A stretch of DNA of 64,000 nucleotides from a virus. The position numbers and the translations under genes are program-made. Shown here one piece after another: positions 33,275 to 51,960 of the stretch (the stretch's first letter is position 1; every line of letters starts with the position of its first letter). The stretch lies in the IMG/VR virus record IMGVR_UViG_3300018428_005148, positions 1 through 64,000 of that record. One strand, written 5' to 3'. The notes under the pieces were generated by a model, which saw nothing but the letters and a program-made list of their open reading frames with translations, did not search any database and was not told the origin of the DNA.

Positions 33275-33587
33275 CACTTGGGTACAACTTACGAAAGACT
33301 TCGTAAAAGAATGGCCGGAGGTTCTAGATGGTTTACAACTAAGGAATATGCCGGTCAAGTACCTGATGTATGTTAACCTTGTTTTGAAAAACAACGTCAC
33401 TATACATTACGACATCAGGAAAGAAATCAAGAGGAAAAAACAAGATCAAATCGCAAGGTTTCTCAAAAAAACCATAGAACAAAACTATATCAAAATAAAA
33501 TCAGTAGAATTGAAGTTTGATATTCCTAGATTGAAAAAAGACATGGAATCTAGAACTTCTGGTATTATTTCAAAAATTTTTAGATAA
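33246..33587 (+). CDS. Hypothetical basic protein
   Basis: A 113-residue protein. The protein-like stretch TWVQLTKDFVKEWPEVLDGL begins before any later ATG, so I chose ATG 33246, which overlaps the preceding gene by 29 bases. It is basic, with a KKTIEQNYIKIKSVELKFDI helix-strand unit. It ends convergently against the - strand aminotransferase (8-base overlap). Family unknown. Confidence 0.5.
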   Translation: MPKRQPPKNSTWVQLTKDFVKEWPEVLDGLQLRNMPVKYLMYVNLVLKNNVTIHYDIRKEIKRKKQDQIARFLKKTIEQNYIKIKSVELKFDIPRLKKDMESRTSGIISKIFR

Positions 33588-34653
33588 TCTTATTGAACTG
33601 GTCAATGACGTGTGATATCTCGTCATCGGTCATCAACGGCCAGCAAGGTAAACTTAGAATGGTTCCAGCAACTGTGTCTGTGTTTCTCAAAAGATCCTTG
33701 TTGTTATAGGCAGGTTGAGCATGACAGCCTAAGGGCCACATGACACCGGTTTCTATGCCTTTCTCTCGCAGTTTTGCAATGACACTGCGTCTGTTTTTGA
33801 CTCTTACCGTGTATTGGTTATAAACATTCTCACACCATTCTGCTGTATGCACCATTGTGTCAGTGTGTAGTTATTTATCGTATATCGAAGCAATACGTCT
33901 CCTGTCTTTGTTATGGCCATCCACTTTTTTGATCATGTGATTAAGCACGTTTGCTTGGACAGAATCTAATCTCTCATTCCATCCTAAAAATTCATGCACG
34001 TATTTGTCAGTGCGTCCATGGTCCCTCGCCATTGATATTTTGTCCACGTAACTTCGACTGCCAACCACTGCGCCGCCGTCGCCAAAACACCACATGTTCT
34101 TTGCAGGATAGAAACTGAAGCAGGTCAGATCATTGTAGGTTCCGTTGATCATATTCTTGTACCTGCCACCAAAACTCTGGGCGGCATCCTGCACTATTGG
34201 AATATCCCCTGCTATGTCCTTGATGGTGTCCCAGTCACAGGTGTGTCCAAAAATATCAACACCAACTATTGCTTTGATATCTTTTGTTGAGCTCAGTAAA
34301 CCTGCAAGGTCGTCAGTGTTTATGGTGTAGTTTTCTGTGTTGCAGTCTGCCCACACAATTTCTAGACCCAACTTACTGGCCATCTCTGGTGTGCTTATGA
34401 AAGTAAAACTAGGTATGACAATCTTGTCTCCGGGTTTGAGTGATAGGCATTCGTATGCCAAAAGCAAGGCACTGGTGCCACTGCTGACACCGACTGCGGG
34501 AGCGCCGCAATAACTACTCAGATTTTTCTCAAACTCTGTGACTTTTGGACCTTTTATAAACCAACTGTTATCGACACAATCCTTAACCGCTTTGTCCAGT
34601 TCCGCTTTTGACTCTTTGTATATCCTATTTAGATTTGCGTAGGGAACTTCCAT
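33580..34653 (-). pseudogene. DegT/DnrJ/EryC1 aminotransferase interrupted by an in-frame stop
   Basis: Read as one frame this encodes about 357 residues of a PLP-dependent sugar aminotransferase. The N-terminal part (to 33871) carries GVSSGTSALLLAYECL, DAAQSFGGRYKN and SFYPAKNMWCFGDGG with the PLP Lys. It ends ASIYDK followed by TAA. The same frame then continues LHTDTMVHTAEWCENVYNQYTV into a normal C terminus. So only one codon breaks the gene, by real mutation, sequencing error or population variant. Such enzymes aminate keto-sugar nucleotides. It overlaps the DesII-like gene by 25 bases, like the DesI/DesII pair. Confidence 0.85.
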
Positions 34654-35831
34654 TTCTTCTCCAATTCGTACTTCCAGTCAAGTTTTTTTGCTTTGTATTT
34701 TTTTGCTTCATGTAAAAGTAAAGTTGTTGTGTGATCAAACGCATCAAGGAAACTAACGTCAAATGGTTGTGCTTTGATGCCTGGTCCTTGTAGATGTTTT
34801 TCGACTATATCACTTACACTTGAATTTTTTATGTTGCCAATGATGTAACGATCACTGCCGGGCCTGTCGAGAAAACCTGTCTCGTGATACACATAGAGAT
34901 TACCTAGGCTGTCCAGAGATGTAGCAATCTGAGGCCATCCGTGTTTGTCCATCTGTTCGTGTGTGGCCATTTTGATAGGGCCTGTTGGTTTGCCATGCCT
35001 CACAGAATGTAGTGCATAACCGTAATCAATATGAATGCGTGTGTCTTGTTCAACTTCTAAAAAGATCTTGTGCAACTTAGACCTCTCTTCATCAGATATG
35101 TAATTGTTTGACTGTGAAAAATCTTCTCTTAATGTTACAAATGAAATTTTAAAATCTGATACGCTGTTTACATCATTAATCATCTTGAACACGCTTTTCA
35201 CGTCATCACTATGTCCTGGCAATATAATCCAGTTTACTCCTAGTTTAATTTTACTTCCTGATGACGGAATCATTCTACAGAAGTCCTTTAAATTTTTTAC
35301 CACCACATCAAATGACTTTTTATTCTTGGTCACTCTATAATAACTCTCTTGGTCGAATCCATACAGGCTTACACGCATCACTTCTAAATCTAGAATGCCT
35401 GGTTGTTTTTTCAAGAAATTTTGTGATAGGGCATAGCCGTTGGTGTACATCTGCATTTTGAATCCTTGGCTGTGGCCATAACTTACTATCTTTCCTATGT
35501 GTGGGTTTGTCAACGGCTCCAGCCCTCCACTTATCCTGAATCTGTCTTGCCAAAATTTTCCTTCCTTTGGGTCTTGGTCTATAACCTGTTTGAATACTTC
35601 AAAGCTCTTGTCAATATCCATAGAATTGTATTTGGCATTGTAGTTCCTGCCACAAAACGTGCAGAAGAACTGACAGGTCATTCCAGGATATAATCCAATC
35701 CTGTTTGGATATGCGTAGGTACCTTCAACAGCATGTTCCAATGAGCCGTTTTTCAACAAAGGACTTATTGTGTTGTTCCAATACCTATTGGTTTCAATGC
35801 TATCTTTTTCGTGTCTATAACCTAATCGCAT
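34629..35831 (-). CDS. DesII-like radical SAM enzyme
   Basis: A 400-residue radical SAM protein with the motif PGMTCQFFCTFCGR (C53, C57, C60) and a SGGLEPLTNP segment in place of the GGEP loop. The motif resembles DesII-type enzymes, which deaminate a 4-amino-4,6-dideoxy sugar nucleotide in deoxyamino-sugar synthesis. Overlap with a DegT-type aminotransferase reproduces the DesI/DesII order of desosamine-like pathways. The assignment is by remembered motif and context, not a search. It lacks the N-terminal Cys region of the tandem radical SAM proteins. Confidence 0.65.
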   Translation of the reverse strand: MRLGYRHEKDSIETNRYWNNTISPLLKNGSLEHAVEGTYAYPNRIGLYPGMTCQFFCTFCGRNYNAKYNSMDIDKSFEVFKQVIDQDPKEGKFWQDRFRISGGLEPLTNPHIGKIVSYGHSQGFKMQMYTNGYALSQNFLKKQPGILDLEVMRVSLYGFDQESYYRVTKNKKSFDVVVKNLKDFCRMIPSSGSKIKLGVNWIILPGHSDDVKSVFKMINDVNSVSDFKISFVTLREDFSQSNNYISDEERSKLHKIFLEVEQDTRIHIDYGYALHSVRHGKPTGPIKMATHEQMDKHGWPQIATSLDSLGNLYVYHETGFLDRPGSDRYIIGNIKNSSVSDIVEKHLQGPGIKAQPFDVSFLDAFDHTTTLLLHEAKKYKAKKLDWKYELEKKWKFPTQI

Positions 35832-35839
35832 ATACTAGT

Positions 35840-37126
35840 TTAACCATATTTTTTCTCAAAGAAATTTTTTATCCATTCGAAATCATAACTGAGATAAGGA
35901 TTTTCTTTGTTTTCTACAAACTTCATGGCATCCATGGCACCTCTGTGTACCCACTCTGCATTTTTACCTTTGCCCATAGTCGTCCATTTCTTTAACCTGT
36001 AATTTGTCTCTACAGTAATTTTTTGTAATTGAAGTTTTATTACCTCACGGAATGCCGTCCTCCATGCCATTAGTGGTGTCTCGTCAAGTTTATTGATTGC
36101 ACTCAGTATCGGAACACTGGTGCAAGGCTTGGACAATGTAAAATCCAATCCCGGATCTGTTGTTTGTTGTACCAATCTTTTGTTCCAGAGTATGACGCCG
36201 TCATGGCCATAGGTGCAGTCTATGACTTCGTTGTGGCAGTCAAAAATATAGTGGCAAGGATTTCTAAGTCTGTCGGGTTGATAGGAAAAATCAAAATCAT
36301 CACATAAGTCTATCTTAGGAAATACTGCAAAGAAATATCTAGTCTTACTCATTGCGGCGGCGGCCATGTATGCCAGTGTCTGCCCTTTGATTCCTTTTGA
36401 CCATTTGGCCCTGGGAAACCTGTCTTTCAAGGTTTCAAATCTTTTACCGGCACCTGGCTCGTCAAAAGATATGAAGACTATGTCTAAATCATTTACTGGA
36501 TAATCCATTTCAAAATGCACACGTCTAGGAATGTCATAAAACTGTTGTATTTCAAAGCCTCCAGGAACCAACATAATGTCATTGGTCCTGCCCCATGTGT
36601 AAAGTTTCACATCCTCCCAAAAACTTGGATAAAAGTCAGGAACCTTGACATGTTGGATGTCTTTGTTTATAAGCCATCTATAAAAACAATTCTTATCGTA
36701 ACTCGCTAAAGGATCATCGAGGCCGAATGATGTCGTGCCTATGGTTTGTTGGTAAACATCGGGATTGGCATGATAGTTGATGTCTTTGAAATCACGCAGG
36801 TATTTAATTTTATGCATCTGTTGTTTGAAGGCTTCTGTTGGTACCAGCATTATGTTTCCTTCCTCGTTCAACCCTGCCATGGGATGACTTGCGTACCAGA
36901 CATGTATTTGTGAATTTTCATGCTGTTCAGGAATGTAATCTAAATCAAAGTCTTTCGACAAGTCTACAAAGTTTGCAAAAAACCAAAAGTATTCTGTGTT
37001 CACATCTTCGACAACCGCTTTGAGTATTTCAAAGTAACTGCCAACAAAAGGCACTACCCTGGTGTTGGCGAATGGGCTAGGATGGTGCTTTGCGTTTTTA
37101 AATCTTACCTGTACACTGTCAAACAT
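35840..37126 (-). CDS. Putative glycosyltransferase-like protein (GT-A-type), two-part
   Basis: A 428-residue protein. Two halves look related: an N-terminal half (NTEYFWFFANFVDL) and a C-terminal half starting DLDIVFISFDEPGAGKRFE, with KTRYFFAVFPKIDL later. The second half is a paralogue of the protein at 48961 (DLDFVYISFKEPNKE... TDFFISVDGDN), where an acid motif suits GT-A transferases. Here that motif is AVFPKID, so catalysis is uncertain. It sits between sugar aminotransferase and DesII-like genes, overlapping the former. Confidence 0.55.
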   Translation of the reverse strand: MFDSVQVRFKNAKHHPSPFANTRVVPFVGSYFEILKAVVEDVNTEYFWFFANFVDLSKDFDLDYIPEQHENSQIHVWYASHPMAGLNEEGNIMLVPTEAFKQQMHKIKYLRDFKDINYHANPDVYQQTIGTTSFGLDDPLASYDKNCFYRWLINKDIQHVKVPDFYPSFWEDVKLYTWGRTNDIMLVPGGFEIQQFYDIPRRVHFEMDYPVNDLDIVFISFDEPGAGKRFETLKDRFPRAKWSKGIKGQTLAYMAAAAMSKTRYFFAVFPKIDLCDDFDFSYQPDRLRNPCHYIFDCHNEVIDCTYGHDGVILWNKRLVQQTTDPGLDFTLSKPCTSVPILSAINKLDETPLMAWRTAFREVIKLQLQKITVETNYRLKKWTTMGKGKNAEWVHRGAMDAMKFVENKENPYLSYDFEWIKNFFEKKYG

Positions 37127-38177
37127 TGTAAAACTTCTTTATTATCTTGCATACAAGGTCTACTTCAGACTTTTTCATAAAAGGATAAATTGGTAGGCTG
37201 AGAGACCGCCTACAAATACTTTCTGCTACTGGATATGAATTCTTAATATCAAGTGTGTGTTCATAGTGTATTTTAGTTTCTACTCCGTTTTCCGCCAAAT
37301 ACCTACGCAGATCATCTCTTTTGTCAACTTGAATGACACACTTGTGATAACTGCTGGTATGTCTTACGTCTGACTCTATAAATGTCAACTGCGGCAAGTT
37401 ATTTTTGTACCTCTCAAATATTTGTTTCCTGTGCTTTTGCAGTCTATCAAAACGAGATAAAAGGAAAAGAAGTTGGTTTGCATGATCGTCTGAAAGTAGA
37501 CTATTGTAACCATAGCTCAGACTGGTTCCGAATCCATGTCGCCTTAGGCTTAACAAAATTTTATAATAATCTTCGTTATCTGTGAGGATCGCTCCACCTC
37601 CACCAAAACTTGGCATGTTCTTCATAGGGTCAAAACTAAAGATACTCAAATCACCTAGTGTTCCAGACTGCTTTTTAAGGTAAGTTGATCCCTGTGATTG
37701 TGCGGCATCTTCAATCAGCACTGTGCCTCTTTTAGAACATATCTTGCTTAGGCTTTCGTATTCGGCAACGTTGCCGTAAAGGTTGACGTAAATCAAAGCC
37801 TTAGGCATACTCATATTGCTTATTTTAAGAGCATCTATGTTGCCTCTGTTGTCCGTGTCTATGTACTCGATGTGAGCCCCTGTCCTTTTTATCGCACCAC
37901 TAGTTGCGACATAACTGAGGGCAGGACAAACCACTGTGTCGTTGTGGGTGACACCTGCACACCTGAGGGCAAAGTATAAACCATCTGTTGCACTTGCAAC
38001 CGCAACTGCATATTTCCTTTTGTATTTTTTTGCAAGTTCTTTTTCAAACTTTTCAAGGTATTGCCCCTGCAACACATTTCCAGTTGCCCATGCCTGCTTT
38101 GCCCTACGTGTCAGCCTCCAACTGTACTCCTTGTACAGCCTGTCGACACCATTAAATTTTATTTTGAAGCCAGTCAT
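37119..38177 (-). CDS. DegT/DnrJ/EryC1 sugar aminotransferase
   Basis: A 352-residue intact PLP-dependent aminotransferase. AVASATDGLYFALRCAG is the cofactor phosphate loop, IEDAAQSQGS carries the PLP Asp and Gln, and SFDPMKNMPSFGGGG has the Schiff-base Lys. It aminates a nucleotide-linked keto sugar using Glu or Gln. It overlaps both the epimerase (26 bases) and the glycosyltransferase-like gene (8 bases), so all belong to one pathway. It is distinct in sequence from the interrupted homologue at 33580. Confidence 0.9.
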   Translation of the reverse strand: MTGFKIKFNGVDRLYKEYSWRLTRRAKQAWATGNVLQGQYLEKFEKELAKKYKRKYAVAVASATDGLYFALRCAGVTHNDTVVCPALSYVATSGAIKRTGAHIEYIDTDNRGNIDALKISNMSMPKALIYVNLYGNVAEYESLSKICSKRGTVLIEDAAQSQGSTYLKKQSGTLGDLSIFSFDPMKNMPSFGGGGAILTDNEDYYKILLSLRRHGFGTSLSYGYNSLLSDDHANQLLFLLSRFDRLQKHRKQIFERYKNNLPQLTFIESDVRHTSSYHKCVIQVDKRDDLRRYLAENGVETKIHYEHTLDIKNSYPVAESICRRSLSLPIYPFMKKSEVDLVCKIIKKFYNV

Positions 38178-39102
38178 AATAATTTTTAAGTCCCTGCTCT
38201 AAGGTGAATTCAGGTTGGTATCCCAAGAGATCTTTTGCCCTGCTGATGTCAAGTGTGCCACGCATTGGATACAATTCATGATTTCCTATATCAACAATGT
38301 CTGAATCGCTACCTGTTATTTCCAATATCTTTTCTGCCAGAGTTCTAAGGCTACTAGCATTGCCGGCAGTAATGTTGAAACTAACATTGGCCACTGGCGA
38401 CAGTGCTGAAAGTATTATCCCTCGTGCGGCATCTTGCCTATACGTAAAATCAACTTTGTTTGCACCATTGTGTAATGTGATGTCTTTGCCTTTCATGGCC
38501 TTATCAAAGAACTTTGACACTACCCTGTCTGGCATGTCCCCCGGACCATACACACCGCTGGGTCGCACTATGTTGTAATTCAATCCCGACCGTTTTGCAA
38601 ACAATTTGACCATTCTTTCACCAGTAAGTTTTGCCTCACCATAGATATTTTTGGGTTTAGTTTTTCCGTCCTCTTTGGTTCCATCAGCAAAGTCACCATA
38701 GACCATGCTACTGCTGACATAGACAATTTTTTTGACTCCAAACTTTTCACAGTGCCATAGCAAGTTTGTAGTGGTGTTGATCACTTTCGGTACTCCTACA
38801 ATAGGATCTGCGTCGACTATCTTTGCCCTAGGATAGGTTGCAAGATGGATTACAATGTCTGGATTGTATGAAAACGCCTTAAGGCAAACTAACCTGTCCA
38901 AAATATCACCACGTATGTAGGAAACTTTCTTTTGATCCCAATTCCTGGTCCGCCATTCATATAACTTACGAAGTTGTTCATTGGTCATGATATCGTAGTT
39001 GTCTTCGTTGTCCACCACAGTGATGCTGTGGTTATCCTCACATAACATCTCAACTATCTTGGATCCTATAAATCCTTTTCCACCTGTTATAAGTATTTTC
39101 AT
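38152..39102 (-). CDS. NAD-dependent sugar-nucleotide epimerase/dehydratase
   Basis: A 316-residue extended SDR. ILITGGKGFIGSKIVE is the NAD loop, YVSSSMVYGD holds the catalytic Ser, and NIYGEAK has YxxxK. NIVRPSGVYGPGD and DFTYRQDAARG are family-typical. It likely acts as 4-epimerase, 4,6-dehydratase or reductase on a nucleotide sugar. I used ATG 39102, which overlaps the stop of the lipoprotein gene (TAATG). Confidence 0.87.
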   Translation of the reverse strand: MKILITGGKGFIGSKIVEMLCEDNHSITVVDNEDNYDIMTNEQLRKLYEWRTRNWDQKKVSYIRGDILDRLVCLKAFSYNPDIVIHLATYPRAKIVDADPIVGVPKVINTTTNLLWHCEKFGVKKIVYVSSSMVYGDFADGTKEDGKTKPKNIYGEAKLTGERMVKLFAKRSGLNYNIVRPSGVYGPGDMPDRVVSKFFDKAMKGKDITLHNGANKVDFTYRQDAARGIILSALSPVANVSFNITAGNASSLRTLAEKILEITGSDSDIVDIGNHELYPMRGTLDISRAKDLLGYQPEFTLEQGLKNYYDWLQNKI

Positions 39103-39284
39103 TAAAATTTCTTTGTAACTCCAAGTTTTGGTTGTGTAACACAATTTTTTGCCTTGTCTATGATTTCCTGACTCATAGTTTTTTGTTCTTGAACTTTGTC
39201 GATTTTCTCAGATCCAGGAATACAGTTGGCATGCGGCTTAAAACCACAAGCAGTTATCAAGACAAAAAGAAGCAAATATCTCAT
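39102..39284 (-). CDS. Small lipoprotein
   Basis: A 60-residue protein with a short signal peptide ending in a lipobox (LLLFVLITACGF, Cys 13). The rest is hydrophilic with Cys at 21 and 48. It overlaps the carbamoyltransferase by 4 bases and shares a base with the epimerase. It could be an outer-membrane lipoprotein for superinfection exclusion or lysis, but no partner spanin gene is visible. Function unknown. Confidence 0.65.
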   Translation of the reverse strand: MRYLLLFVLITACGFKPHANCIPGSEKIDKVQEQKTMSQEIIDKAKNCVTQPKLGVTKKF

Positions 39285-40747
39285 CCTAATACCTTGACCC
39301 CATACTTGTTGGTAAATGCTTTACCATCCTCCCTGTCATTCACTATCGGTTGCCCTTTTATGTTGAGACTGGTGTTGAGAAGTATGGGGCAACCAGTCTG
39401 TCGTTTCCATTCTGTTAGCAGTGCGTGAAACCCCGGATTGTCAGTTTTCCGCACGGTTTGTACCCTAGAAGTGTGATCATGATGTATTATGGCAGGGAAG
39501 TCTTTACCATGCGTACACGCCGCTGTATATTGCATATAAGGGGTGTTTTTGACTCCTTTAGGTAGGGTAAAATAGTCATTTACATCCTCCTCTAATATGG
39601 CTGGGGCGAACGGTCTGAACTTCTGTCTCTTCTTGATTGCATTTACCATGTCCTTGATGTCCTCACCCCTAGGGTCCGCTAGTAATGATCTATTACCAAG
39701 TGCCCTCGGACCAAATTCCGCTCTACCGCTCGCAACTCCCACCATCTTGTTTTCCTTCAATTCCTTGATAAGTGCGTCCACAGGATACTCACCGTCTATC
39801 TCTGTGCCCAGGAACGGGTGTTGCCAATCTATGAATCTCTTCTCGTGTGCGGCTATGCAACCAACACTTGATCCCGCGTCTCCGGGATTTGGTATTATCC
39901 AGATGTTGTCAAACAATCCCATGTTGGCCAACACCCTGTTCGCGGCACAATTCAGTGCCACACCGCCCGCATACACAAGGTTGCGTGATCCGTAACTGCT
40001 GGCCCTGTGCCACAAGTCTGCGAGGCATTCTTCTGTGACTGCCTGTATGCTGGCCGCTATGTCCATCACGTCCGCTTCTGGATGCCAGTCTCCGAGGCCC
40101 CTGTGTAGGTTCTGTTTGAGTTTGAAAGGTGCTTGTTCAACGAAGTCTTCATATATGTCCTGTTTGTATTTTGGCTCGCCGTACGCGGCCATGCCCATGA
40201 GGATGTACTCCTCTTCCGCTGGTTTGAGACCACAACGGTGTGTGAATGCCGAATACAGTATGCCCAGGCTGTGTGGATACCTGATTGTTTCCTTACGTTC
40301 GATGTTCCTTCCACGAGCGGTTGAAATACTGGCAGTGTCCCATTCGCCTATCGCGTCCACTGTTAGTATCGTTGCCTCACGGAATGGTGACGTGAAGTAT
40401 CCCGCCGCCGCGTGTGAGTCATGGTGCAACACGTACTCGTCTATCCTGATGTGGAACTGGTCAAGGTGCCACTGAGGCATCTCTGACTGTGCGAATGCTT
40501 CTCTGTACTGACCCGCGTAGAACTGTCTTGTCTTCTTGAGCAATGGTTTCTCGTAGTACACCACCTTTTTGAATGGTCCGTATTTGTTTGCTTCGTTGAC
40601 TATACCCCAGTTGAGGTAGTGGTCATTTTTTACCTTGGAATAGCGTTCCGAGTGAGCGGCCCATAGTATCCGGCCAACACCCGCTTGGAACTCTATGACC
40701 GCCATGGCGGCATCGTGATTCATGCAGTTAATTCCCAGTATTCTCAT
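39281..40747 (-). CDS. Carbamoyltransferase (NodU/CmcH/TobZ family)
   Basis: A 488-residue two-domain enzyme. The N-terminal Kae1-like domain has NHDAAMAVIE and YVLHHDSHAAAGYFTSPF (metal His). The C-terminal YrdC-like region has GRAEFGPRALGNRSLLADPR and PILLNTSLNIKGQPI. This family transfers carbamoyl from carbamoyl phosphate, through carbamoyl-AMP, to a sugar hydroxyl. The sugar-nucleotide genes around it suggest that its acceptor is a rare sugar. It overlaps the zinc ribbon (20 bases) and the lipoprotein gene. Confidence 0.9.
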   Translation of the reverse strand: MRILGINCMNHDAAMAVIEFQAGVGRILWAAHSERYSKVKNDHYLNWGIVNEANKYGPFKKVVYYEKPLLKKTRQFYAGQYREAFAQSEMPQWHLDQFHIRIDEYVLHHDSHAAAGYFTSPFREATILTVDAIGEWDTASISTARGRNIERKETIRYPHSLGILYSAFTHRCGLKPAEEEYILMGMAAYGEPKYKQDIYEDFVEQAPFKLKQNLHRGLGDWHPEADVMDIAASIQAVTEECLADLWHRASSYGSRNLVYAGGVALNCAANRVLANMGLFDNIWIIPNPGDAGSSVGCIAAHEKRFIDWQHPFLGTEIDGEYPVDALIKELKENKMVGVASGRAEFGPRALGNRSLLADPRGEDIKDMVNAIKKRQKFRPFAPAILEEDVNDYFTLPKGVKNTPYMQYTAACTHGKDFPAIIHHDHTSRVQTVRKTDNPGFHALLTEWKRQTGCPILLNTSLNIKGQPIVNDREDGKAFTNKYGVKVLG

Positions 40748-40895
40748 CTTCCTCCTTGTGCCAACCCATGTCCTCTATGTTTTCACTACTGCAACTTGGA
40801 CAAACATACCATTCGTTCGTTGTATCATCTTTTTCTAAGTCGTTGGCAACACCCTTCCATTTACAATCATAACAGAAGAAGTTCCACCATGTCAT
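40728..40895 (-). CDS. Small zinc-ribbon protein
   Basis: A 55-residue ORF shorter than usual gene calls. It has two CxxC knuckles, FCYDCKW and VCPSCSS, about 24 residues apart, plus surrounding aromatic residues, which is a rubredoxin- or zinc-ribbon-like layout. ATG at 40895 overlaps the preceding stop (ATGA) and its end overlaps the carbamoyltransferase start. It might bind zinc or iron and assist neighbouring enzymes. Confidence 0.65.
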   Translation of the reverse strand: MTWWNFFCYDCKWKGVANDLEKDDTTNEWYVCPSCSSENIEDMGWHKEEDENTGN

Positions 40896-41536: not shown

Positions 41537-41537
41537 T

Positions 41538-41642
41538 TTATTTGTATATGAAAGGGTCTTTTTTCTTCAATTCTTTAAGTCTTTTCCTATAAGCAATCTC
41601 ATTTTTGATCTTGCTTATAATTTTTTTTATCCAATTGAACAT
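41538..41642 (-). CDS. Tiny basic protein
   Basis: A 34-residue ORF (MFNWIKKIISKIKNEIAYRK... ending DPFIYK) with start ATG overlapping the SGNH stop (TAATG) and GGAGG upstream. Similar short proteins ending DPFIYK occur in marine phages, from memory. It is an amphipathic basic helix, perhaps membrane-binding. Confidence 0.55.
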   Translation of the reverse strand: MFNWIKKIISKIKNEIAYRKRLKELKKKDPFIYK

Positions 41643-44992: not shown

Positions 44993-46271
44993 ACTTCTCA
45001 AACAGTTCGGTCCATTCTGGGAACACTTCTTTTGTGTTTTCAGTCCTTATGTTGTCGTACTTCTTAGTATTTTCAAAAAACAATGGCAGATGCTTTTGGT
45101 TGTCAGTTTTATTCATCCAATTGATAGCAGACTCAAATCCTTTTGTTGCCCTAGTAAGGGGATCTTTATCAGACAACCAAGAAAGGTGATCCTTGTATTT
45201 GTTTTCTATCTGTTGTTTGTATTCTGGCGGTAGTATGTCTATCCGTTGCCATATAGGATGTTGCAAAAGGTTGAAATTGAAATCTTGCGGCTTGATCAAA
45301 CCCTGTTCTGCCCAATTCTTGTGAAAGTCACAAACGTGCAGTGCGTTGAGAAGTCCCACTGTTGAACTGATATAAAAATCAACTTTGGGACAAACTTCAA
45401 TCATACGTTTCCTGTTTGCCAAAGTTTCTTCCCATATCGTGCCTTTACGCATGAGTTCGGCCCTGGGTCCTTCTGCATCGAGGCTGGCTCCAACACTGAC
45501 ACTATCAAACTTATTCCATAATTCAAAAACATCAATATCTTTGAAAGTAGACCTGCTGAAATTAGTGTTATAAATTAGACGCACATGATACATTTTCCTT
45601 TTATCTAATTCTTTCAATATGCGATAGTGCTCCTCCATAATAATCGGCTCGCCACCTGCAAAATAGAATTGCTCGGCATGATCGAAAGACTCAAGCATCT
45701 GTTCCCAAAGATCATCTGTGCTTCGGCCAACCTTCATGATTTTTGCATGTGGTGGTGGGGCACCTGTAAGTTTTTTATGATCCTCGTACCAGTTAGAGCT
45801 GAACCACGTGCCACAACTCCTGCAGGCCATGTTGCACAAATTAGAAAATCTTATGTCCCAATATTTCATCACGAAGTCTGCCGTGCCATCATCCTGTGTG
45901 CTGTCCACAAGTCCTATGTTGTGTCCGAAGTGCTTGTTTGAACTAAGGCGTAGACTGAAAAAACCTGACTTTTCTTGATCATAGCATTTTACACAGCCAC
46001 GTGATTTTTGATTGTTCAACATCCTCACACGCATTTGCTTCATTTTTTCACCATTGAAGACTTCCTTTAGACTCTGCTTGTTGAGATCTCCCACGGGGTA
46101 GGGATCAAATGCGAAACAACATGGATATGCTCTTCCATCAGGATACGCATGTAAGTGCATCCATGGAAGCATACAGAAAGTGTCGCTTTCGAGCAACAAC
46201 TCCTTTTGCCTCGGAGTCATGTCCTTGATTTTAATTTTTTCGGGCTCTTTGGCCCCGTACTCATATGCCAC
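44982..46271 (-). CDS. Radical SAM protein, N-terminal SPASM/twitch-like (tandem copy 3)
   Basis: A 429-residue protein. Radical SAM Cys are C146, C150 and C153 (CNMACRSC); FYFAGGEPIIM is the GGEP segment. N-terminal Cys: C33, C51-C52, C93 and C96. The N-terminal repeat (TFCMLPWMHLHAYPDGRAYP) resembles that of copies 4 and 5 (FCMAPWTH, CALPWTH). This shows divergence from a common ancestor. The gene overlaps the next upstream by 11 bases. Confidence 0.88.
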   Translation of the reverse strand: MAYEYGAKEPEKIKIKDMTPRQKELLLESDTFCMLPWMHLHAYPDGRAYPCCFAFDPYPVGDLNKQSLKEVFNGEKMKQMRVRMLNNQKSRGCVKCYDQEKSGFFSLRLSSNKHFGHNIGLVDSTQDDGTADFVMKYWDIRFSNLCNMACRSCGTWFSSNWYEDHKKLTGAPPPHAKIMKVGRSTDDLWEQMLESFDHAEQFYFAGGEPIIMEEHYRILKELDKRKMYHVRLIYNTNFSRSTFKDIDVFELWNKFDSVSVGASLDAEGPRAELMRKGTIWEETLANRKRMIEVCPKVDFYISSTVGLLNALHVCDFHKNWAEQGLIKPQDFNFNLLQHPIWQRIDILPPEYKQQIENKYKDHLSWLSDKDPLTRATKGFESAINWMNKTDNQKHLPLFFENTKKYDNIRTENTKEVFPEWTELFEKYDR

Positions 46272-47604
46272 GGTACCATTCTCCTATGATTGGGAAAGTC
46301 TTCTCGAAGTCCTTGCCCCTACGCTTGTCATACTGGCTGTAGAAAGCCTTGAAATCCTTCTGTAGTTTGCCCTGTTCGGCCGCGCCCGCATGCGGTGTCT
46401 TTACAACGTCAAGATAATCTATAAGCCTTTGTGTATGATTGATTTCCATTTGTTCCAAATATTTCTCATTTGTATTTAAAAATTTGGTAATGTCGGTCTT
46501 AAATTTTTCACGTAGATCGTCTGGTAGTACGAGCGGTGATTGGAAACTTGGGAATCTCAATATATTCAGGGTGTAGTTGATTGTTGGACCATACACCTTG
46601 CTGGCACTCTTGAACCATACTATCTTTTCCAGGAACTCTGGCAGTGACTCTAAACATAATGCGTTAATCGTGGCCATGTTGTGTATGGCCATCGGTACTT
46701 TGTTCGACATGAAATCCAACACGTTCTTGAACCAGTCTGTGTATATCAGGCCATCCCTTATGTACTCCGCTTGAGAGCCAACTGCTTCATTGGACGTGTA
46801 CAATTCGAACTTTTTAAAATTTTTCAACTTGCTTTTGAATCTCTCTAATATCTCGTGCTTTGCACCAAGGTTACTGTTGATTGCTATACGCATATCGGGA
46901 TTCATTTTATCACCTTGCGTCTCTATCCAGTCCAGCAGTCTCCACAGGTTGGGTGACATCATTGGCTCACCACCGGTTATCCTTAACTCGTCCAGACTCT
47001 TGTGTAGGTCGGTCTCCCACCATCTGTAGAATGCCTCAACATATGGATTGGTCTCATCCTTCTTGTATGGTTCCGCTGAGTCGTGTGCGTGTGTGAAATG
47101 GTTCCTACCGTCTGATTCCAATCCGGTGTAAGGACCTTTCTGCTTGATATCATTGGCCCAGGTAGTGCTGAACGCAGGATTGCAATAGGTACAGGCGAAT
47201 TGACAGGTCCTATCAAACGCTATCTCCAACGTCTTCAAGTTGTAATCTTTACTGTGATCGTTATCAAATGCTGTTTGTAAATCACTGTTGGTAAAAATTT
47301 TGCTCTTATAAACCCTGTCACTGATGTTGTCCCTGTTGATGTCCTCTATCTTCCAACAGTACTCACAGCCTGCCGGCCTCTCGCCACACTGCATCTGTCT
47401 TCTCTGTTCCTTTTTTTGACGTGTGTTGTGGATTGCACTGGGATTGGCTTTGATTTCTACTAGGTCTATCTTATGTGGCAATGGGTGGTGGCAACTTGTG
47501 GTCATGCCTGATCCCAACCATATGGTTGCGTTGTACCACTTGGCTCCGCAGAAGCTCGCGGATTTGGTGTCCAGTATCTGTTTCTTGTATTCTAGGTCGT
47601 CCAT
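46261..47604 (-). CDS. Radical SAM protein, N-terminal Cys region, CH subtype (tandem copy 2)
   Basis: A 447-residue protein using ATG 47604. Radical SAM Cys are C134, C138 and C141 (CQFACTYC); RITGGEPMMS is the GGEP loop. N-terminal residues are C19, then C38-H39-H40 in place of CC, then C80 and C83. It is closest to copy 1 (shared GERPxGCxYCWKIED-like and GGEPMM segments), so these two form a subtype. The His may replace a Cys ligand. Overlaps both neighbours. Confidence 0.88.
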   Translation of the reverse strand: MDDLEYKKQILDTKSASFCGAKWYNATIWLGSGMTTSCHHPLPHKIDLVEIKANPSAIHNTRQKKEQRRQMQCGERPAGCEYCWKIEDINRDNISDRVYKSKIFTNSDLQTAFDNDHSKDYNLKTLEIAFDRTCQFACTYCNPAFSTTWANDIKQKGPYTGLESDGRNHFTHAHDSAEPYKKDETNPYVEAFYRWWETDLHKSLDELRITGGEPMMSPNLWRLLDWIETQGDKMNPDMRIAINSNLGAKHEILERFKSKLKNFKKFELYTSNEAVGSQAEYIRDGLIYTDWFKNVLDFMSNKVPMAIHNMATINALCLESLPEFLEKIVWFKSASKVYGPTINYTLNILRFPSFQSPLVLPDDLREKFKTDITKFLNTNEKYLEQMEINHTQRLIDYLDVVKTPHAGAAEQGKLQKDFKAFYSQYDKRRGKDFEKTFPIIGEWYRGI

Positions 47605-48971
47605 GTGTTCTTGCACTCCTCCCAAAATTCCAACATCTCAGGGAACGTGTTCTCAAAGTTAGTTAAGCGCCTGCGATCGTGTTCGTTAAAAAATGCGTAA
47701 AAGTTCTTTTTCAGAGATGCGCTCGCATCAGCGTTTTCGCGCCAGTAGGCGAGATTGCGTCGCATCTTTTGGATCTCGAAGTCCTTGAATATGTGTAGCC
47801 CGCTCGACTCGCCGGAGTTCTCCTCCATGTATTGTATGTTCGCCTCGTGTATGCTCTGGTACGACTCGGGCAACATGGTTATCTGTTGCCACGCGGGTTG
47901 TCTCAGCAAGGGCACGTCGAACCACACACGCTGGTAGTCCTTTGAATATCTCTTACGCAGGTCCAGTATGCGCTCCAGCAGTTTGTCCATGCTGGTGACA
48001 CTGAGGTTGTTGTAGGTTATGATGAATGTCACTGAATTCCTGTGTGGTATGCGCTCCAGGAACTCCTCCACGTTCGCCATCATGCGATCGAATTCCAGTC
48101 CGTTGCGTATGTACTCCGCCCGCTTGCCGAACGCATCCACGCTGACGAACTGCATCACGTGTTCCACCTTCTGCTGTAGGCATATCTGCTGTAGCATGTT
48201 GAAGTACTTGGTCTTCAACTTGGGGTCCGGTGGACAGAAGTTGCTGGTTATGTTCAGGTGCAGGTCATCCTTGGGGTGATCGATGATGTACTGGAACACT
48301 CTGTAGGTGTTGGGATCCATCATGGGCTCTCCGCCCGTCATCCTGAAGTGCTTGAGGTTCTTGTACAGCGTGGGCCACCATTCCCAGAACGCCTTCACGT
48401 ATGGGTTATCCTCGCGGTTTGGTATGGGACGCCTCCTGCCCTGGAAGTGCTCGGGTGCGTTGTGGGGAGGGGTGGTCGGATATTGGTCATAGCGATCCAC
48501 CTCCTTGCCCCACGTGGTCGAGAACTGTGGTGAACAATAACTGCACTTGAAGTTACAAGCGTGGTTGAAGTTTACCTCCACGTATCTCGGCGTCCAATCC
48601 GCCTTCATTGGATTCTGTCTTATCTGTTCGAAGTCCTGCATGGCCCAAGGTTCACCAGAACGGTAGTGCCTGTCCGACATCTCGCCCGTGTCCTCCAGTT
48701 TCCAGCAGTAACTACAGCCCTTGGGACGCTCGCCCTTCAGCATCTGCTCACGCTGTCGCAGTTTCTCCTTGGTGTTGTGCAGTGCGGCTGGATTGTGTTT
48801 CAGTTGTTCGGCATCTATCTCGTGCAGGGGCGGGTGGTAGCAACTGTTGGTGAGACCCGTGGGCAGATGCAGGCTCACCTGGTTCCACTTGGCCAGGCAC
48901 ATGGTGGGAGAAATCGTCTCCAGTTTGTGCCTTGCGTGTTCCGCCTGTGACTTGTAATCGCTAGTGCTCAC
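47592..48971 (-). CDS. Radical SAM protein, N-terminal Cys region, CxH subtype (tandem copy 1)
   Basis: A 459-residue protein. Radical SAM Cys are C139, C143 and C146 (CNFKCSYC); RMTGGEPMMDPN is the GGEP loop. N-terminal residues are C25, C44-Y-H46, then C86 and C89. It is the first of the five in transcription order and the nearest paralogue of copy 2, sharing CSYCW and the DNPYVKAFWEWW-type segment. It is preceded by a glycosyltransferase-like gene with an 11-base overlap. Confidence 0.88.
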   Translation of the reverse strand: MSTSDYKSQAEHARHKLETISPTMCLAKWNQVSLHLPTGLTNSCYHPPLHEIDAEQLKHNPAALHNTKEKLRQREQMLKGERPKGCSYCWKLEDTGEMSDRHYRSGEPWAMQDFEQIRQNPMKADWTPRYVEVNFNHACNFKCSYCSPQFSTTWGKEVDRYDQYPTTPPHNAPEHFQGRRRPIPNREDNPYVKAFWEWWPTLYKNLKHFRMTGGEPMMDPNTYRVFQYIIDHPKDDLHLNITSNFCPPDPKLKTKYFNMLQQICLQQKVEHVMQFVSVDAFGKRAEYIRNGLEFDRMMANVEEFLERIPHRNSVTFIITYNNLSVTSMDKLLERILDLRKRYSKDYQRVWFDVPLLRQPAWQQITMLPESYQSIHEANIQYMEENSGESSGLHIFKDFEIQKMRRNLAYWRENADASASLKKNFYAFFNEHDRRRLTNFENTFPEMLEFWEECKNTWTT

Positions 48972-49857
48972 GGTCCTGTACTCCTCTGTTCACGTGTGCC
49001 GGCATCACAAACCTGTAGAACCTGCTGTCCGCCTCGTCGAAATCCGCTATGGGCATGTCCAACTGCTGTCGTAGGCTGTTGCCCCACATCTCAAGCTCTC
49101 TGTCTATGTTGGCAGGTTGCACCGCGGAATGGAAATAGTCCGCCATGCTGTTGAGGTCCGTCACGTCGAATTCCTCGTTCTTGTGATCTATCACTGTGTA
49201 GAAACTGCCCATCCTGGCACCCAGCATGGCGAACTTGCCGTGCTCCACGTCGGCACCAACCGTGCACCACGTGGTCAGTATGCGTAGGTTTGTGGGCCAA
49301 ATGGATGAAAAATGTTCTGGTGAAATTGCCTTGCCCTTGTCGGTGCTCATCTTGACTCCCTCACGGAAACCAGCCACAAACGCCTGTTGGGCAGTGCTGT
49401 TTATCACTGTCTCCGAGTAGCAGTTGTGTAGGTTTTCATGGGGTACACCCCAGCAGAAATCTATCCTATTCTTGTCGTCGTCGGCGTTCTCGTGTGTCCT
49501 CATCTCGAGGCAAGTCTTTTTGGGCCATCCCACCACACCACCGTTGCCATACACGAGCCCGTTGACACTGTTCCGGGCACGCCATCTGTGCACCTTATTC
49601 TTGTCTGTCTTTGACCAGTCCAGGGTCTGCAACAGGAAACTCTCGTCCAATATGTTGTCACCGTCTACGCTGATGAAGAAATCAGTTTCCGCCATCTCGG
49701 CGGCCGCCTTGTGTGCCGAGTCGAACCCCACTACCCCGTCCACTCGCTTTGCCCATGGCACCTTGTTCTTGAGGTCGGCCCAGTTCTGTTCCTTGTTCGG
49801 CTCTTTGAAACTGATGTAAACAAAGTCAAGGTCGTTCACTCTCACTTTTTCTGCCAT
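48961..49857 (-). CDS. Putative glycosyltransferase (GT-A type)
   Basis: A 298-residue protein. DLDFVYISFKEPNKEQNW opens the fold, and ETDFFISVDGDNILDESFL carries an acidic D-x-D-N motif suited to nucleotide-sugar binding. It is a paralogue of the C-terminal half of the 35840 protein. I chose ATG 49857, preceded by a G-rich ribosome site, over the longer form. It overlaps the radical SAM tandem array downstream. Confidence 0.65.
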   Translation of the reverse strand: MAEKVRVNDLDFVYISFKEPNKEQNWADLKNKVPWAKRVDGVVGFDSAHKAAAEMAETDFFISVDGDNILDESFLLQTLDWSKTDKNKVHRWRARNSVNGLVYGNGGVVGWPKKTCLEMRTHENADDDKNRIDFCWGVPHENLHNCYSETVINSTAQQAFVAGFREGVKMSTDKGKAISPEHFSSIWPTNLRILTTWCTVGADVEHGKFAMLGARMGSFYTVIDHKNEEFDVTDLNSMADYFHSAVQPANIDRELEMWGNSLRQQLDMPIADFDEADSRFYRFVMPAHVNRGVQDREH

Positions 49858-50120
49858 GAGTGTCCCCCTTGTACCACGCCGTTGGGCCAATGTATGTCAT
49901 TGTCCTGAAATGCGTAACCTTTCTGTGATTTGACCAGGCAGTTATAGAGAAGTTTTGTGTTGGCTGGCCTATAAACTGCTTTGCCCCCTTCGATTACGTA
50001 GTTGTGCTCTCCCCTCTGTATCGCCAACAACTTCTCTTTCAATGAAACCTCAAATTGTTTGCCTTGCACTGTGACAAAATGTTTTTTGGCAGGACGTGGA
50101 GGTAGCAGGTCAAATTTCAT
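49842..50120 (-). CDS. Small hypothetical protein
   Basis: A 92-residue protein. KKHFVTVQGKQFEVSLKEKLL and QRGEHNYVIEGGKAVYRP are beta-rich segments. No family is recognised. It overlaps both glycosyltransferase-like neighbours (11 and 16 bases). Confidence 0.5.
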   Translation of the reverse strand: MKFDLLPPRPAKKHFVTVQGKQFEVSLKEKLLAIQRGEHNYVIEGGKAVYRPANTKLLYNCLVKSQKGYAFQDNDIHWPNGVVQGGHSWQKK

Positions 50121-50904
50121 GTACTTCTATGTCCTTTTTTACGTAATGCCACGGCCGTGAAACACGTTGCTCACCGAGATACAGGTGTCTTCCTGCCCTG
50201 TTGGGCATGAGATATTTGATGTGATCAGACTGTTTTTCAAGATTGTTCACTGCTGGTTTGTTATGGATGAACTTGAACCATTCGTAGTCTATCAATTTTT
50301 GGCTTGTTGGATCTATTATCCTGTACGCTAGAGCAAACACAACATCTGTGCTTGGAAACTCGTCGTGACAGTTGATCAGCATTGTTTTCCTGACATCTTC
50401 CCAATTTTCTGCCACATAACTTGCAGTATTGAAGAACTTCTGAGCCCAGCGGCTTTTCCTGAAGTACATCAAACCGTTGTAAATGTTTGGCAAGTTGTTC
50501 CTTGCGAAAAGTTTTCTATATGGAGTGTGCTTGACCACCTGGTCCTTGTAATTTCTACAATTGACTGCAAACACCAAATCGTGTTGCCAAAGATGATTCC
50601 ACCACCAATCCGTGTTGCAAGTCCACAGCATGTCACTCTCTAACTTTATGGTATGGGTGAAAGGGCTGAGGGAAAACGCTTTGTATTCATTGGCCCACTT
50701 GATCTTGTGGTTCTCACTGCTGTCTTTTTTAAGTATCTTTACGTAGTCAACTGCATCGTGCGTGAACTTGCTGTGTTCGTCAGTGACTACGCATATCTGG
50801 TTTTCCTTGTTCCATGACTTGATGCTTTCGGCCAATCTGATACTAATCTCCACGTAGTTGGTCTTGTCATTGTTCTGTGCGAACCATAGGAAACCTTTAG
50901 ACAT
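50110..50904 (-). CDS. Putative glycosyltransferase-like protein
   Basis: A 264-residue protein. The N-terminal SKGFLWFAQNNDKTNYVEI and QICVVTDEH begin an alpha/beta domain; KLESDMLWTCNTDWWW carries an E-x-D near a Trp-rich turn, where a GT-A D-x-D would be. NIYNGLMYFRKSRWAQKFF and HDEFPSTDVVFALAYRI match the acceptor side of GT-A enzymes. The ATG at 50904 was chosen over a longer upstream start. Overlaps the next upstream gene by 8 bases. Confidence 0.6.
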   Translation of the reverse strand: MSKGFLWFAQNNDKTNYVEISIRLAESIKSWNKENQICVVTDEHSKFTHDAVDYVKILKKDSSENHKIKWANEYKAFSLSPFTHTIKLESDMLWTCNTDWWWNHLWQHDLVFAVNCRNYKDQVVKHTPYRKLFARNNLPNIYNGLMYFRKSRWAQKFFNTASYVAENWEDVRKTMLINCHDEFPSTDVVFALAYRIIDPTSQKLIDYEWFKFIHNKPAVNNLEKQSDHIKYLMPNRAGRHLYLGEQRVSRPWHYVKKDIEVHEI

Positions 50905-51643
50905 CGATCTCCTTGTTGAGCACATGCACGTCTTGGTCCTCCGTGAACATTACCTGGTCATCATATTTCCACGACAATCCTCTGTCACCTATTTCAAGCA
51001 CCTTGCAATCTGGTGGAAGAGTTGGCAATGATATTGGCATGGTGTCATACGTCATAAAACCATTGGCGTGTTGCAGAGCTATTGCAAATGCGTAGTCGTT
51101 ACGAAAGTTCAAGGCCCTTACCCTGTAAAGTTTATTGAAGTGTGCATAGTATTTTTTTACATACTTCACCATGTCGAATATCCTTTTTGCTTTCTCAGTC
51201 TTTCTAAAAATTATAACAGTTGCCCAGACCATATCAATCACGCTGAAACGTGCATGGTCAAAACTGTTTCTTCCTGATAGGTCGTACGCTTCTTTCGACA
51301 CAAGGAAGTCATAGCCTGTGTCCATAAGTTGTCTCAGGTTGTCAGTGAAAGGGAAGTAGTCTATGTCGATCAATAGTGTGCAATCATACGGTGAAAGTTC
51401 ATAGGCCATGTGCCTATCAAGGTTTCGCCATTCTTTTTTGTTCTTCGTGTTGCCCAGTTCGGGGTCGATTAATTTATAATTAACGAATCCCAATGGCTTA
51501 ATCATCTTGAAGGTTTGCAGGTCAGTCACTACTGTGACATCCAGGCCAAGATTTTTCTTTACAAGTGCAACACATGTCTCCAACACCCTGTGGTATTTGG
51601 TGTCTGCCGTGTCAAAACAGAATAAAAGTACACCCTTCTGCAT
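50897..51643 (-). CDS. Glycosyltransferase, GT-A type with DxD
   Basis: A 248-residue protein. SPYDCTLLIDIDYFPFT has the D-x-D metal/nucleotide motif after a hydrophobic strand. GVLLFCFDTADTKYHRV starts the fold, and NDYAFAIALQHANG is a conserved acidic pair in the acceptor region. It could transfer a sugar to a phage or host acceptor. It overlaps the first gene of the operon by 1 base. Confidence 0.65.
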   Translation of the reverse strand: MQKGVLLFCFDTADTKYHRVLETCVALVKKNLGLDVTVVTDLQTFKMIKPLGFVNYKLIDPELGNTKNKKEWRNLDRHMAYELSPYDCTLLIDIDYFPFTDNLRQLMDTGYDFLVSKEAYDLSGRNSFDHARFSVIDMVWATVIIFRKTEKAKRIFDMVKYVKKYYAHFNKLYRVRALNFRNDYAFAIALQHANGFMTYDTMPISLPTLPPDCKVLEIGDRGLSWKYDDQVMFTEDQDVHVLNKEIDV

Positions 51644-51960
51644 CAGTCACTCCGCTTCTCAAATGTTTTAGACATCTGATGATACGAACTGATTGCTTCT
51701 TGGTTCCTCTCAGTCAACTTTTTGAGAAATTGCTCTGGATCTTTGATCTCAACAGGATTGTTATTCGAGTCAAGCACAAAAAACTGGTCGTGATCATCTG
51801 CAAGAGTCTTGACCAGGCAGATTGTTTCTGCGTCTGCTTTGAATATGTGTTCGTTGTATACAACTATCATCCGCGAGTGTGCCTTCTCCAGAGCGTTGCG
51901 TTTGGCAACCGCTATGTTGTATGAAAGATCAGATTGTTTTTTTAGTTCGCCAATATCCAT
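51643..51960 (-). CDS. Hypothetical protein, first gene of the 21-gene operon
   Basis: A 105-residue helical protein using ATG 51960, which lies 6 bases after the -10 of its promoter. Features: KKQSDLSYNIAVAKRNALEK, then HDQFFVLDSNNNPVEI. A single Cys (ETICLVKTL). No family recognised. A longer in-frame start at 51975 is unlikely because it overlaps the -10. Confidence 0.5.
   Translation of the reverse strand: MDIGELKKQSDLSYNIAVAKRNALEKAHSRMIVVYNEHIFKADAETICLVKTLADDHDQFFVLDSNNNPVEIKDPEQFLKKLTERNQEAISSYHQMSKTFEKRSD

Follow-up and report, generated by a model that had tools for sequence, protein, structure and literature searches.

An 18-kb run of 21 genes in a marine T4-like phage (recognised by its portal, baseplate and family-B polymerase) is likely an operon that builds and attaches a glycan, and this operon, which has dozens of uncultured relatives, probably puts an unusual sugar on the surface of the virus or of its host. 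The reading that we prefer, with a probability of about 0.48, is that the locus is the glycan operon of the phage's host-recognition region and acts on the putative virion protein str320, encoded just upstream. In marine T4-like phages, sugar and radical SAM genes tend to be catalogued as unconnected auxiliary genes. In this phage they make up a single ordered operon, and its co-inheritance with one candidate virion protein means that the question of what surface-sugar genes act on can be tested directly on str320.

Operon layout, promoter and conservation

ORF calls in the window (the whole stretch analysed, 64,000 nucleotides of IMG/VR record IMGVR_UViG_3300018428_005148) placed 21 tightly packed minus-strand genes between positions 51960 and 33580, with neighbours that overlap or lie no more than about 10 nt apart, as an earlier note on this DNA had described (Table 1); the count includes three small ORFs (34, 55 and 60 aa) and treats the split last gene as one. 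That a single promoter serves the operon was also borne out: among the starts tested in 52 relatives, that of sm110 is the sole one with a sigma70-like promoter clearly above chance (a score of at least 10/12 in 46% of relatives and in 0% of shuffles); of ten further operon starts, not one clearly stood out. Only 6 nt separate the end of the −10 box from the first ATG, which would leave the transcript with little or no leader. The −10 box is overlapped by the candidate operator CCATAATTATTGTATAATTGTGG, which occurs once in the window; relatives carry dyads of differing sequence at the same place (mean score 6.2, against 2.6 for shuffles). Late-type sites (TATAAATA) precede the structural genes, and the sigma70-type promoter precedes the operon.

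The operon lies beside baseplate and tail-fibre genes (PHROG matches to baseplate wedge, portal and structural proteins), with a 4291-aa baseplate-linked protein encoded upstream. Eighty IMG/VR contigs share the order tail gene, str320, sm110, GTa, GTb, GTc, five radical SAM genes, SGNH and CarbT, at identities of 71–86% in marine and 47–53% in freshwater lineages. Besides its glycosyltransferases, the conserved core holds five distinct N-twitch radical SAM enzymes, together with the SGNH-like protein, the microprotein and the carbamoyltransferase CarbT. Gene-order comparison, proposed in the earlier note as a way to define the core set, found the stretch from str320 to CarbT stable; the free variation of neighbours that would have spoken against that note's reading was restricted to the distal nucleotide-sugar genes, the last five or six. 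Searches of the literature available to us returned nothing on this gene combination or on the microprotein motif.

Table 1. Features of the operon and its upstream flank, in the direction of transcription
Feature	Position	Strand	Basis or remark
tail550, tail-fibre-like virion protein	52975..54627	-	PHROG tail fibre / virion structural matches
str320, Ser/Thr-rich, probable virion protein, proposed glycan acceptor	52009..52971	-	3 nt after tail550
sigma70-like promoter TTGTTT-17-TATAAT	51966..51994	-	retained in most relatives
imperfect dyad, operator candidate	51962..51984	-	overlaps −10 box
sm110 (105 aa), first gene	51643..51960	-	no consistent Pfam match
GTa, GT8/GT6-like glycosyltransferase, DxD at D93/D95	50897..51643	-	invariant DxD; predicted fold
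GTb, glycogenin-like glycosyltransferase, ExD	50110..50925	-	E96/D98 conserved
sm92, small protein	49842..50120	-	ORF call, relatives
GTc, GT-A type glycosyltransferase	48961..49890	-	DGD motif; predicted fold
rS5, N-twitch radical SAM	47592..48971	-	NF033640, 334 bits
rS4, N-twitch radical SAM	46261..47625	-	NF033640, 300 bits
rS3, N-twitch radical SAM	44982..46271	-	NF033640, 404 bits
rS2, N-twitch radical SAM	43583..45001	-	NF033640, 311 bits
rS1, N-twitch radical SAM	42420..43601	-	NF033640, 366 bits
SGNH-like hydrolase/esterase	41642..42427	-	invariant S10 in GGCSFTFG, H243 of DxxH block
microprotein, 34 aa, MFNWIKKIISKIKNEIAYRKRLKELKKKDPFIYK	41538..41642	-	upstream of CarbT
GNAT-like protein, presence variable	40892..41536	-	motifs
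zinc-ribbon-like ORF, 55 aa	40728..40895	-	9 relatives
CarbT, NodU/TobZ-type O-carbamoyltransferase	39281..40747	-	PF02543 and PF16861 above cut-off
signal-peptide-like ORF, 60 aa	39102..39284	-	12 relatives
NAD-dependent sugar epimerase/dehydratase	38152..39102	-	PF01370, 143 bits
DegT2 sugar aminotransferase	37119..38177	-	PF01041, 247 bits
GTd, two-domain, glycosyltransferase-like	35840..37126	-	no Pfam or INPHARED match
DesII-like radical SAM enzyme	34629..35831	-	232 bits to DesII 8hzv
DegT1, DesV-like aminotransferase	33580..34653	-	in-frame TAA 33871-33873 interrupts gene

Glycosyltransferases, radical SAM enzymes and sugar genes

The glycosyltransferase labels of the earlier note agree with conserved DxD or ExD motifs, with two predicted GT-A folds and with a weak profile match of GTb to glycogenin (E 0.003). 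Foldseek placed the AlphaFold model of GTa (pLDDT 92) with retaining GT-A enzymes (E 1e-6 to 1e-5) and that of GTc (pLDDT 87) with GT2-type enzymes (E 1e-4, TM low), and both proteins are predicted to adopt GT-A folds. Pfam searches gave no match for the glycosyltransferases, nor did INPHARED for GTd; profile searches of solved structures with GTa, GTc or SGNH as query found nothing relevant, and close matches to GTa, GTc, GTd and str320 were absent from cultured pelagimyophages and cyanomyophages. GTc has an unusual GC3 of 0.70. For sm110 there was no consistent Pfam match, and its identification as a known tail-fibre chaperone was rejected.

All five tandem radical SAM proteins pass NF033640, the profile for twitch domain-containing radical SAM enzymes, at 300–404 bits (curated cut-off 170 bits), and the CX3CX2C motif and N-terminal auxiliary-cluster cysteines are kept in 98–100% of the 48–80 orthologues of each gene: judged by sequence, these are N-twitch radical SAM enzymes with intact cysteine motifs. 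The five types are ancient. They recur in Bacteriovoracia chromosomes as arrays without adjacent sugar genes and hence need not act on sugars. An anti-phage viperin reading was discarded, as the profile of prokaryotic viperin (NF038283, cut-off 180 bits) gave weak superfamily matches of 17–30 bits for four of the five and none for rS2 among the matches listed, and PADLOC matches were likewise weak.

Domain searches agree with the earlier radical SAM, carbamoyltransferase, epimerase, DegT aminotransferase and DesII-like labels; those of SGNH and GNAT draw on motifs and on the earlier note's reading, and Pfam searches found no family match for either. The nearest solved structure to the epimerase is UDP-glucose 4-epimerase. 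The last two genes resemble the desosamine pathway in setting a DesII-like radical SAM enzyme before a DesV-like aminotransferase (DesII and DesV; structures 8hzv and 2oga). They differ from it in that the former scores 318 bits on TIGR04426, under the equivalog cut-off of 450, and is therefore called DesII-like only, in that the aminotransferase is interrupted, and in that no 4,6-dehydratase was recognised. Both predicted aminotransferases are DegT proteins, the second with an in-frame stop; an alternative genetic code was rejected given a single interrupted gene, mixed stop usage and normal neighbours. The DesII-like gene is present in one viral relative only. The proposal that all the enzymes make one rare carbamoylated sugar is unsupported as stated, because the DesII-like gene is rare, the cassette varies, the DesV-like gene is broken and the radical SAM classes occur in bacteria without sugar genes.

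The Carbam_trans_N and Carbam_trans_C domains of CarbT score 147 and 183 bits, both above their cut-offs, and H108, H112, D131 and D290, presumably the metal-site His and Asp residues, are invariant in ten homologues, one of them bacterial. The microprotein, which hardly changes between relatives and whose N-terminus is basic amphipathic or hydrophobic, was detected in about 70 of the 80 relatives, and its C-terminal DPFIYK is invariant across 52 distinct nucleotide versions. In the majority of the viral contigs tested it lies a short way upstream of CarbT, also in ones where radical SAM genes are absent; outside this lineage its partner is CarbT at 36 of 39 loci and a radical SAM gene at 14 of 23. 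It is not universal, being missing at 12 loci of a 58–61% identical CarbT group (2.3–4 kb upstream scanned). Searches by tblastn, weak for a 34-aa query, found no copy in cultured phages and, among 289 genomes from the same class as a Pelagibacter MAG, a single viral-looking contig inside that MAG. HypF, a carbamoyltransferase of CarbT's fold, acts on a protein C-terminus, the C-terminal Cys of HypE; the microprotein, unlike HypE, ends in Tyr-Lys, and carbamoyl transfer to it is putative. The bolder idea, that CarbT has a new mechanism which works on or through DPFIYK and in which the microprotein serves as acceptor or as an indispensable partner, and that the five N-twitch classes form an undescribed multi-enzyme pathway placing a hitherto unknown modification on a phage glycoprotein, strikes us as rather doubtful. 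The five classes and the microprotein–CarbT pair are small, widely distributed enzyme systems to which no reaction has been assigned.

str320 and the possible target of the glycan

Among the tail genes tested, str320 has the highest Ser/Thr content (30% here; mean 26% over 64 orthologues); database searches returned no match for it. Controlled for CarbT and rS5, its partial Mantel r is 0.70 with GTa, 0.58 with GTb, 0.58 with sm110 and 0.53 with sm92, but 0.04 with tail550 despite the 3 nt spacing, and in the freshwater set its closest partner is again GTa (r 0.78). Co-inheritance with these four genes and not with tail550 points to str320 as a glycosylated virion protein, and on such sequence comparisons the virion is favoured as the glycan's target. 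The earlier note had left phage DNA, tail fibres and host surface side by side as sites of attachment: building and attachment of a glycan are well supported, the tail-fibre or virion option gains from the co-inheritance and Ser/Thr content of str320, and DNA is disfavoured. GTa and GTb would initiate a glycan on str320 or lengthen it, str320 being taken as a protein of a virion appendage; GTc and GTd would extend this glycan, and the distal cassette (epimerase, aminotransferase, DesII/DesV-like enzymes) would supply a variable sugar. CarbT would carbamoylate this sugar with the basic amphipathic microprotein as helper or guide, the radical SAM set may modify the glycan, or what carries it, in additional ways, and the variable surface sugar could alter host recognition or protect the fibre. 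The enzymes would be expressible early from the host-type promoter, and so be ready once the late structural protein appears.

A glycan is supported by the gene order and overlaps retained across 80 contigs, by the exchangeable distal sugar genes, by the GT-A folds and by radical SAM–CarbT clusters of Bacteroidetes (see below); against it stand two sugar genes, rare or interrupted here, and the Bacteriovoracia arrays. As for str320, recombination hot spots could also cause co-inheritance, its virion membership is putative, and the operon promoter stands between it and the operon. That promoter, of host type and with a nearly leaderless start, would also suit remodelling of the host surface, an unlikely but by no means negligible alternative, in which the infected cell's O-chain or capsule is altered so that superinfection is blocked or progeny are freed from debris. 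The radical SAM–CarbT pair does occur within ABC-exported polysaccharide clusters of Bacteroidetes, and pelagimyophage GT8 genes have been read likewise (PMC7029224). The microprotein's N-terminus would fit a membrane tether for CarbT where a lipid-linked glycan is assembled, a role that we again consider unlikely without dismissing it. However, no flippase, polymerase, ligase or acyltransferase-like membrane enzyme was recognised in the operon, and this alternative leaves unexplained why str320 travels with GTa and GTb.

PqqA and MftA are tiny proteins within their own operons, and a tiny protein with an invariant C-terminus lies inside this one: the five radical SAM enzymes might constitute a RiPP-like pathway maturing the microprotein or str320, with the sugar genes separate and sharing only the promoter. 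Arrays free of sugar genes in Bacteriovoracia and auxiliary-cluster cysteines like those of SPASM/twitch peptide maturases agree with such maturation. Yet a precursor peptide accompanies its radical SAM gene, as in PQQ and mycofactocin, a pattern that the microprotein does not follow: it goes with CarbT, and since CarbT-linked copies occur without radical SAM genes, its candidacy as their substrate is weakened. It was also missing from the bacterial array genome searched, and no RRE-type leader-binding protein was recognised; maturation we hold to be improbable. Very improbable is DNA hypermodification, with CarbT and the glycosyltransferases acting on hydroxymethylated bases: a phage NodU/TobZ-type enzyme, as CarbT is, does carbamoylate 5hmC (PMC8670742), and freshwater relatives do have genes of the thymidylate synthase family, but the neighbours of the 5hmC enzyme, a thymidylate-synthase-type hydroxymethylase and a deaminase, were not seen here, and carbamoyltransferases beside glycosyltransferases are reported in unmodified contigs as well (PMC8670742). 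The hydroxymethylase was found in none of eight marine operon records, which are fragments, a TET/JBP search run without a positive control gave no match, and the operon adjoins tail genes.

Related gene clusters

The earlier statement that no known phage system matches the pathway was too strong, as two published examples are of the same kind. The host recognition cluster of pelagimyophages and cyanomyophages is described as hypervariable and non-syntenic; it holds numerous glycosyltransferases, chiefly GT8, besides some radical SAM cassettes, and a host-surface role is proposed for it (PMC7029224). Like the operon, it belongs to T4-like phages and adjoins a large baseplate protein and tail fibres; unlike it, the operon keeps a core of about 12 genes ordered alike in marine and freshwater lineages and varies only in the distal cassette. 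TARA_ERS488813_N000010, a T4-like environmental genome, carries 12 radical SAM genes and an A-type Fe-S carrier (PMC5332604), comparable to the present set, in which a record has 7–13 NF033640 matches and 8 of 14 records have an A-type carrier; in the part of that paper available to us its radical SAM genes are read as Fe-S metabolism, and operon, glycan and microprotein are not described.

O-antigen-type Wzm/Wzt clusters of Bacteroidetes (L095, L108, L109 and L119) differ from the phage operon in having one radical SAM gene (on the rS3 side of the tree) and not five, in possessing a transporter (none seen in the L095 stretch examined) and in that no microprotein was found. They also hold genes for UDP-sugar dehydrogenase, a GT1 glycosyltransferase, epimerase and GDSL proteins. 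As in the phage, an N-twitch radical SAM homologue directly precedes and overlaps a NodU-type carbamoyltransferase, 31–33% identical to phage CarbT.

Operon layout and conservation

The virus record is 100,650 bases long (IMG/VR), of which the window covers bases 1–64000, and ORF calls there place the operon on the minus strand as 21 genes running from 51960 to 33580, with neighbors overlapping or separated by a few bases. The TTGTTT-17-TATAAT promoter ends 6 nt ahead of the first ATG, in agreement with the close-packed layout behind one promoter described in the earlier note. In most relatives, a promoter of the same type lies within the gap of about 33–90 nt between the genes for the Ser/Thr-rich protein str320 and the small protein sm110; it scored at least 10 of 12 in 46% of 52 relatives (shuffles, 0), and sm110 was the sole gene start tested with a promoter clearly above chance, which bears out the single promoter. 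An inverted repeat overlapping the –10 box varies in sequence among relatives, but its symmetry is retained (mean 6.2 versus 2.6 for shuffled controls), making it a plausible candidate operator. Structural genes are preceded by TATAAATA sites, and the operon thus appears to have a host-type promoter adjoining a putative late module. In three relatives (L036, L055 and L059), the str320–sm110 gap is about 990 nt rather than the usual 50 or so, which suggests that a gene or other element has been inserted on the promoter side of the str320 block.

Using the radical SAM gene rS3 as query, we obtained 80 viral contigs with the gene order tail550 (tail-fiber-like), str320, sm110, GTa, GTb, sm92, GTc, rS5, rS4, rS3, rS2, rS1, SGNH, GNAT, CarbT, although GNAT was often missing. 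Identity of rS3 was 71–86% in the first 58 contigs and 47–53% in the remainder, sets to which we give the provisional habitat labels marine and freshwater; in the freshwater set, rS1 and rS2 appear to be swapped, with insertions, and sugar genes are scarce after CarbT. Overlaps are mostly kept (e.g., rS2/rS1 in 52 of 52). Instead of varying freely, neighbors define a core from str320 to CarbT, and marked variation is limited to the genes downstream of CarbT: epimerase, DegT and the glycosyltransferase-like GTd are variously arranged, oxidoreductase-like ORFs occur in some relatives, and the DesII-like gene was found again in only one. Judged by this confinement, the operon is a stable core with an exchangeable sugar cassette. 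GC3 of GTc and rS5 (47592–49890) is 0.70–0.74, compared with roughly 0.45 in most other parts of the operon, and rS5 has the highest mean GC3 of the core genes in relatives (0.49).

Enzymes and origin of the radical SAM set

The glycosyltransferases, five tandem radical SAM proteins and carbamoyltransferase named in the earlier note are borne out. In profile searches, rS1–rS5 score 300–404 bits against NF033640 (cut-off 170), a radical SAM family with an N-terminal auxiliary domain, and since the CX3CX2C and auxiliary-cluster cysteines occur in 98–100% of orthologs of each, all five look active. The predicted GTa model (pLDDT 92) has its matches among retaining GT-A enzymes, including LgtC and alpha-1,3-galactosyltransferase, that of GTc (pLDDT 87) has GT2-type matches (E ~1e-4, low TM), GTb weakly matches glycogenin, and both NodU/TobZ domains are present in CarbT. 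The alignment between the DesII-like protein and DesII spans 365 residues. The last aminotransferase gene, DegT1, encodes a protein close to DesV (2oga) and is split by an in-frame TAA (33871–33873) with a same-frame ATG five codons on, and its product is likely inactive, or the record contains a sequence error there.

When bacterial and archaeal genomes were scanned, N-twitch radical SAM genes turned up in Bacteroidetes, Bdellovibrionota, Elusimicrobia and others, and in the tree the phage genes rS1 to rS5 occupy five distinct groups. Next to genes taken to be obg and rsfS, an array on a Bacteriovoracaceae chromosome (L101/L174) contains sisters of rS1, rS2, rS5 and the rS4 group, together with a gene that places close to rS3. 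Genes of the rS2 class occur in 8 of 129 Bacteriovoracia genomes, and the loci examined have housekeeping neighbors and no sugar genes. By these comparisons the set predates the operon; given the array, and the lack of sugar genes around it and at the loci examined, the five enzymes probably function together and do not have to be involved in making the sugar. In Bacteroidetes, unlike these loci, a single radical SAM gene overlaps a CarbT homolog within ABC-exported polysaccharide clusters. At L174 8150–19909 there are seven to eight consecutive N-twitch genes, two of them separated by a small secreted-protein-like ORF.

A microprotein paired with the carbamoyltransferase

Translated searches detected a 34-aa microprotein in about 70 of the 80 relatives. 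Across 52 distinct nucleotide versions its last six residues are constant while codons vary freely, and the ORF in relatives has a strong ribosome-binding site, all of which mark it as a real gene under strong selection. A pattern scan matched at least 120 viral stretches, among which invariance of the motif is not evidence because the pattern includes it. Among the matches listed, CarbT followed in the same orientation, no more than 3 kb away, at 36 of the 39 loci whose sequence extended far enough, and a radical SAM gene lay upstream at just 14 of 23. At four CarbT loci without a nearby radical SAM gene, the microprotein ended 2–4 nt before CarbT. It was not found within 2.3–4 kb upstream of CarbT at 12 loci of a CarbT group of 58–61% identity. 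Its N-terminal part varies in sequence and has a basic and amphipathic or hydrophobic character. The microprotein might guide or feed the carbamoyltransferase as membrane tether, substrate tether or acceptor; C-terminal carbamoylation has a precedent in HypF/HypE, by analogy only. In L358, about 1.8 kb before CarbT, there is a second ORF resembling the microprotein, diverged and ending KKLRKKKDPYLYR.

Candidate glycan targets and structural neighborhood

We place the probability that this is a glycan operon at about 0.85. Its kind is already known: pelagimyophage host recognition clusters, at the corresponding place, combine glycosyltransferases with radical SAM cassettes (PMC7029224), and 12 radical SAM genes are present in a T4-like environmental genome (PMC5332604). 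The conserved ordered core, str320 block, ancient five-class set and microprotein–CarbT pair were not found in the literature searched, which had partial coverage. Of the proposed targets, phage DNA is disfavored, as the marine records lack the partner enzyme that goes with DNA carbamoylation of the type in PMC8670742; a virion protein has nearly even odds, and the host surface somewhat lower odds.

In pairwise distances among 43 dereplicated marine relatives, str320 tracks GTa (r 0.72), GTb (0.63), sm110 (0.57) and sm92 (0.57), and is much less tied to tail550 (0.36) or rS1–rS3 (0.07–0.15). With two backbone genes controlled for, these links persist (GTa 0.70, GTb 0.58, sm110 0.58, sm92 0.53), whereas that to tail550 falls to 0.04 despite a 3-nt spacing in the window. 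In backbone-close pairs with diverged GTa, str320 and sm110 are more diverged, and tail550, rS5 and CarbT are unchanged; the str320–GTa link reappears in the freshwater set (r 0.78). Ser/Thr content of str320 orthologs is high throughout (mean 26%). The simplest reading is that the block holds an acceptor protein, str320, and glycosyltransferases dedicated to it, an arrangement that we infer, since recombination hot spots on either side of the block would yield an identical pattern.

DNA polymerase B, portal and baseplate wedge/hub proteins mark the phage as T4-like; the portal has matches in 2498 records, the best (49–53%) to jumbo T4-like phages. Directly upstream of str320 lie a 4,291-aa baseplate-linked protein and three related tail-fiber-like genes.

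Coordinates of the microprotein and of features outside the operon
Feature	Position	Strand	Remarks
34-aa microprotein, MFNWIKKIISKIKNEIAYRKRLKELKKKDPFIYK	41538–41642	-	between SGNH and GNAT
4,291-aa ORF	59887–72762 (window part 59887–63993, rest in record)	-	virion structural and baseplate wedge/tail fiber connector family matches
Sixth N-twitch radical SAM gene	27936–29075	+	201 bits
QueE-like radical SAM gene	20697–21635	+	
Sodium:solute symporter-like gene, then AMP-binding ligase	21623–24383	+	unusual phage pair
ATPase-like gene, then DUF2201 metallopeptidase/VWA protein	29159–31494	+	likeness to MoxR-VWA pair

Contigs of this phage group (L085–L089) are binned in bacterial MAGs of Pelagibacter, Betaproteobacteria, Verrucomicrobia, Flavobacterium and Rickettsiales, making host labels from those bins unsafe. 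The plus-strand half of the phage carries two further radical SAM genes, one QueE-like and one N-twitch.
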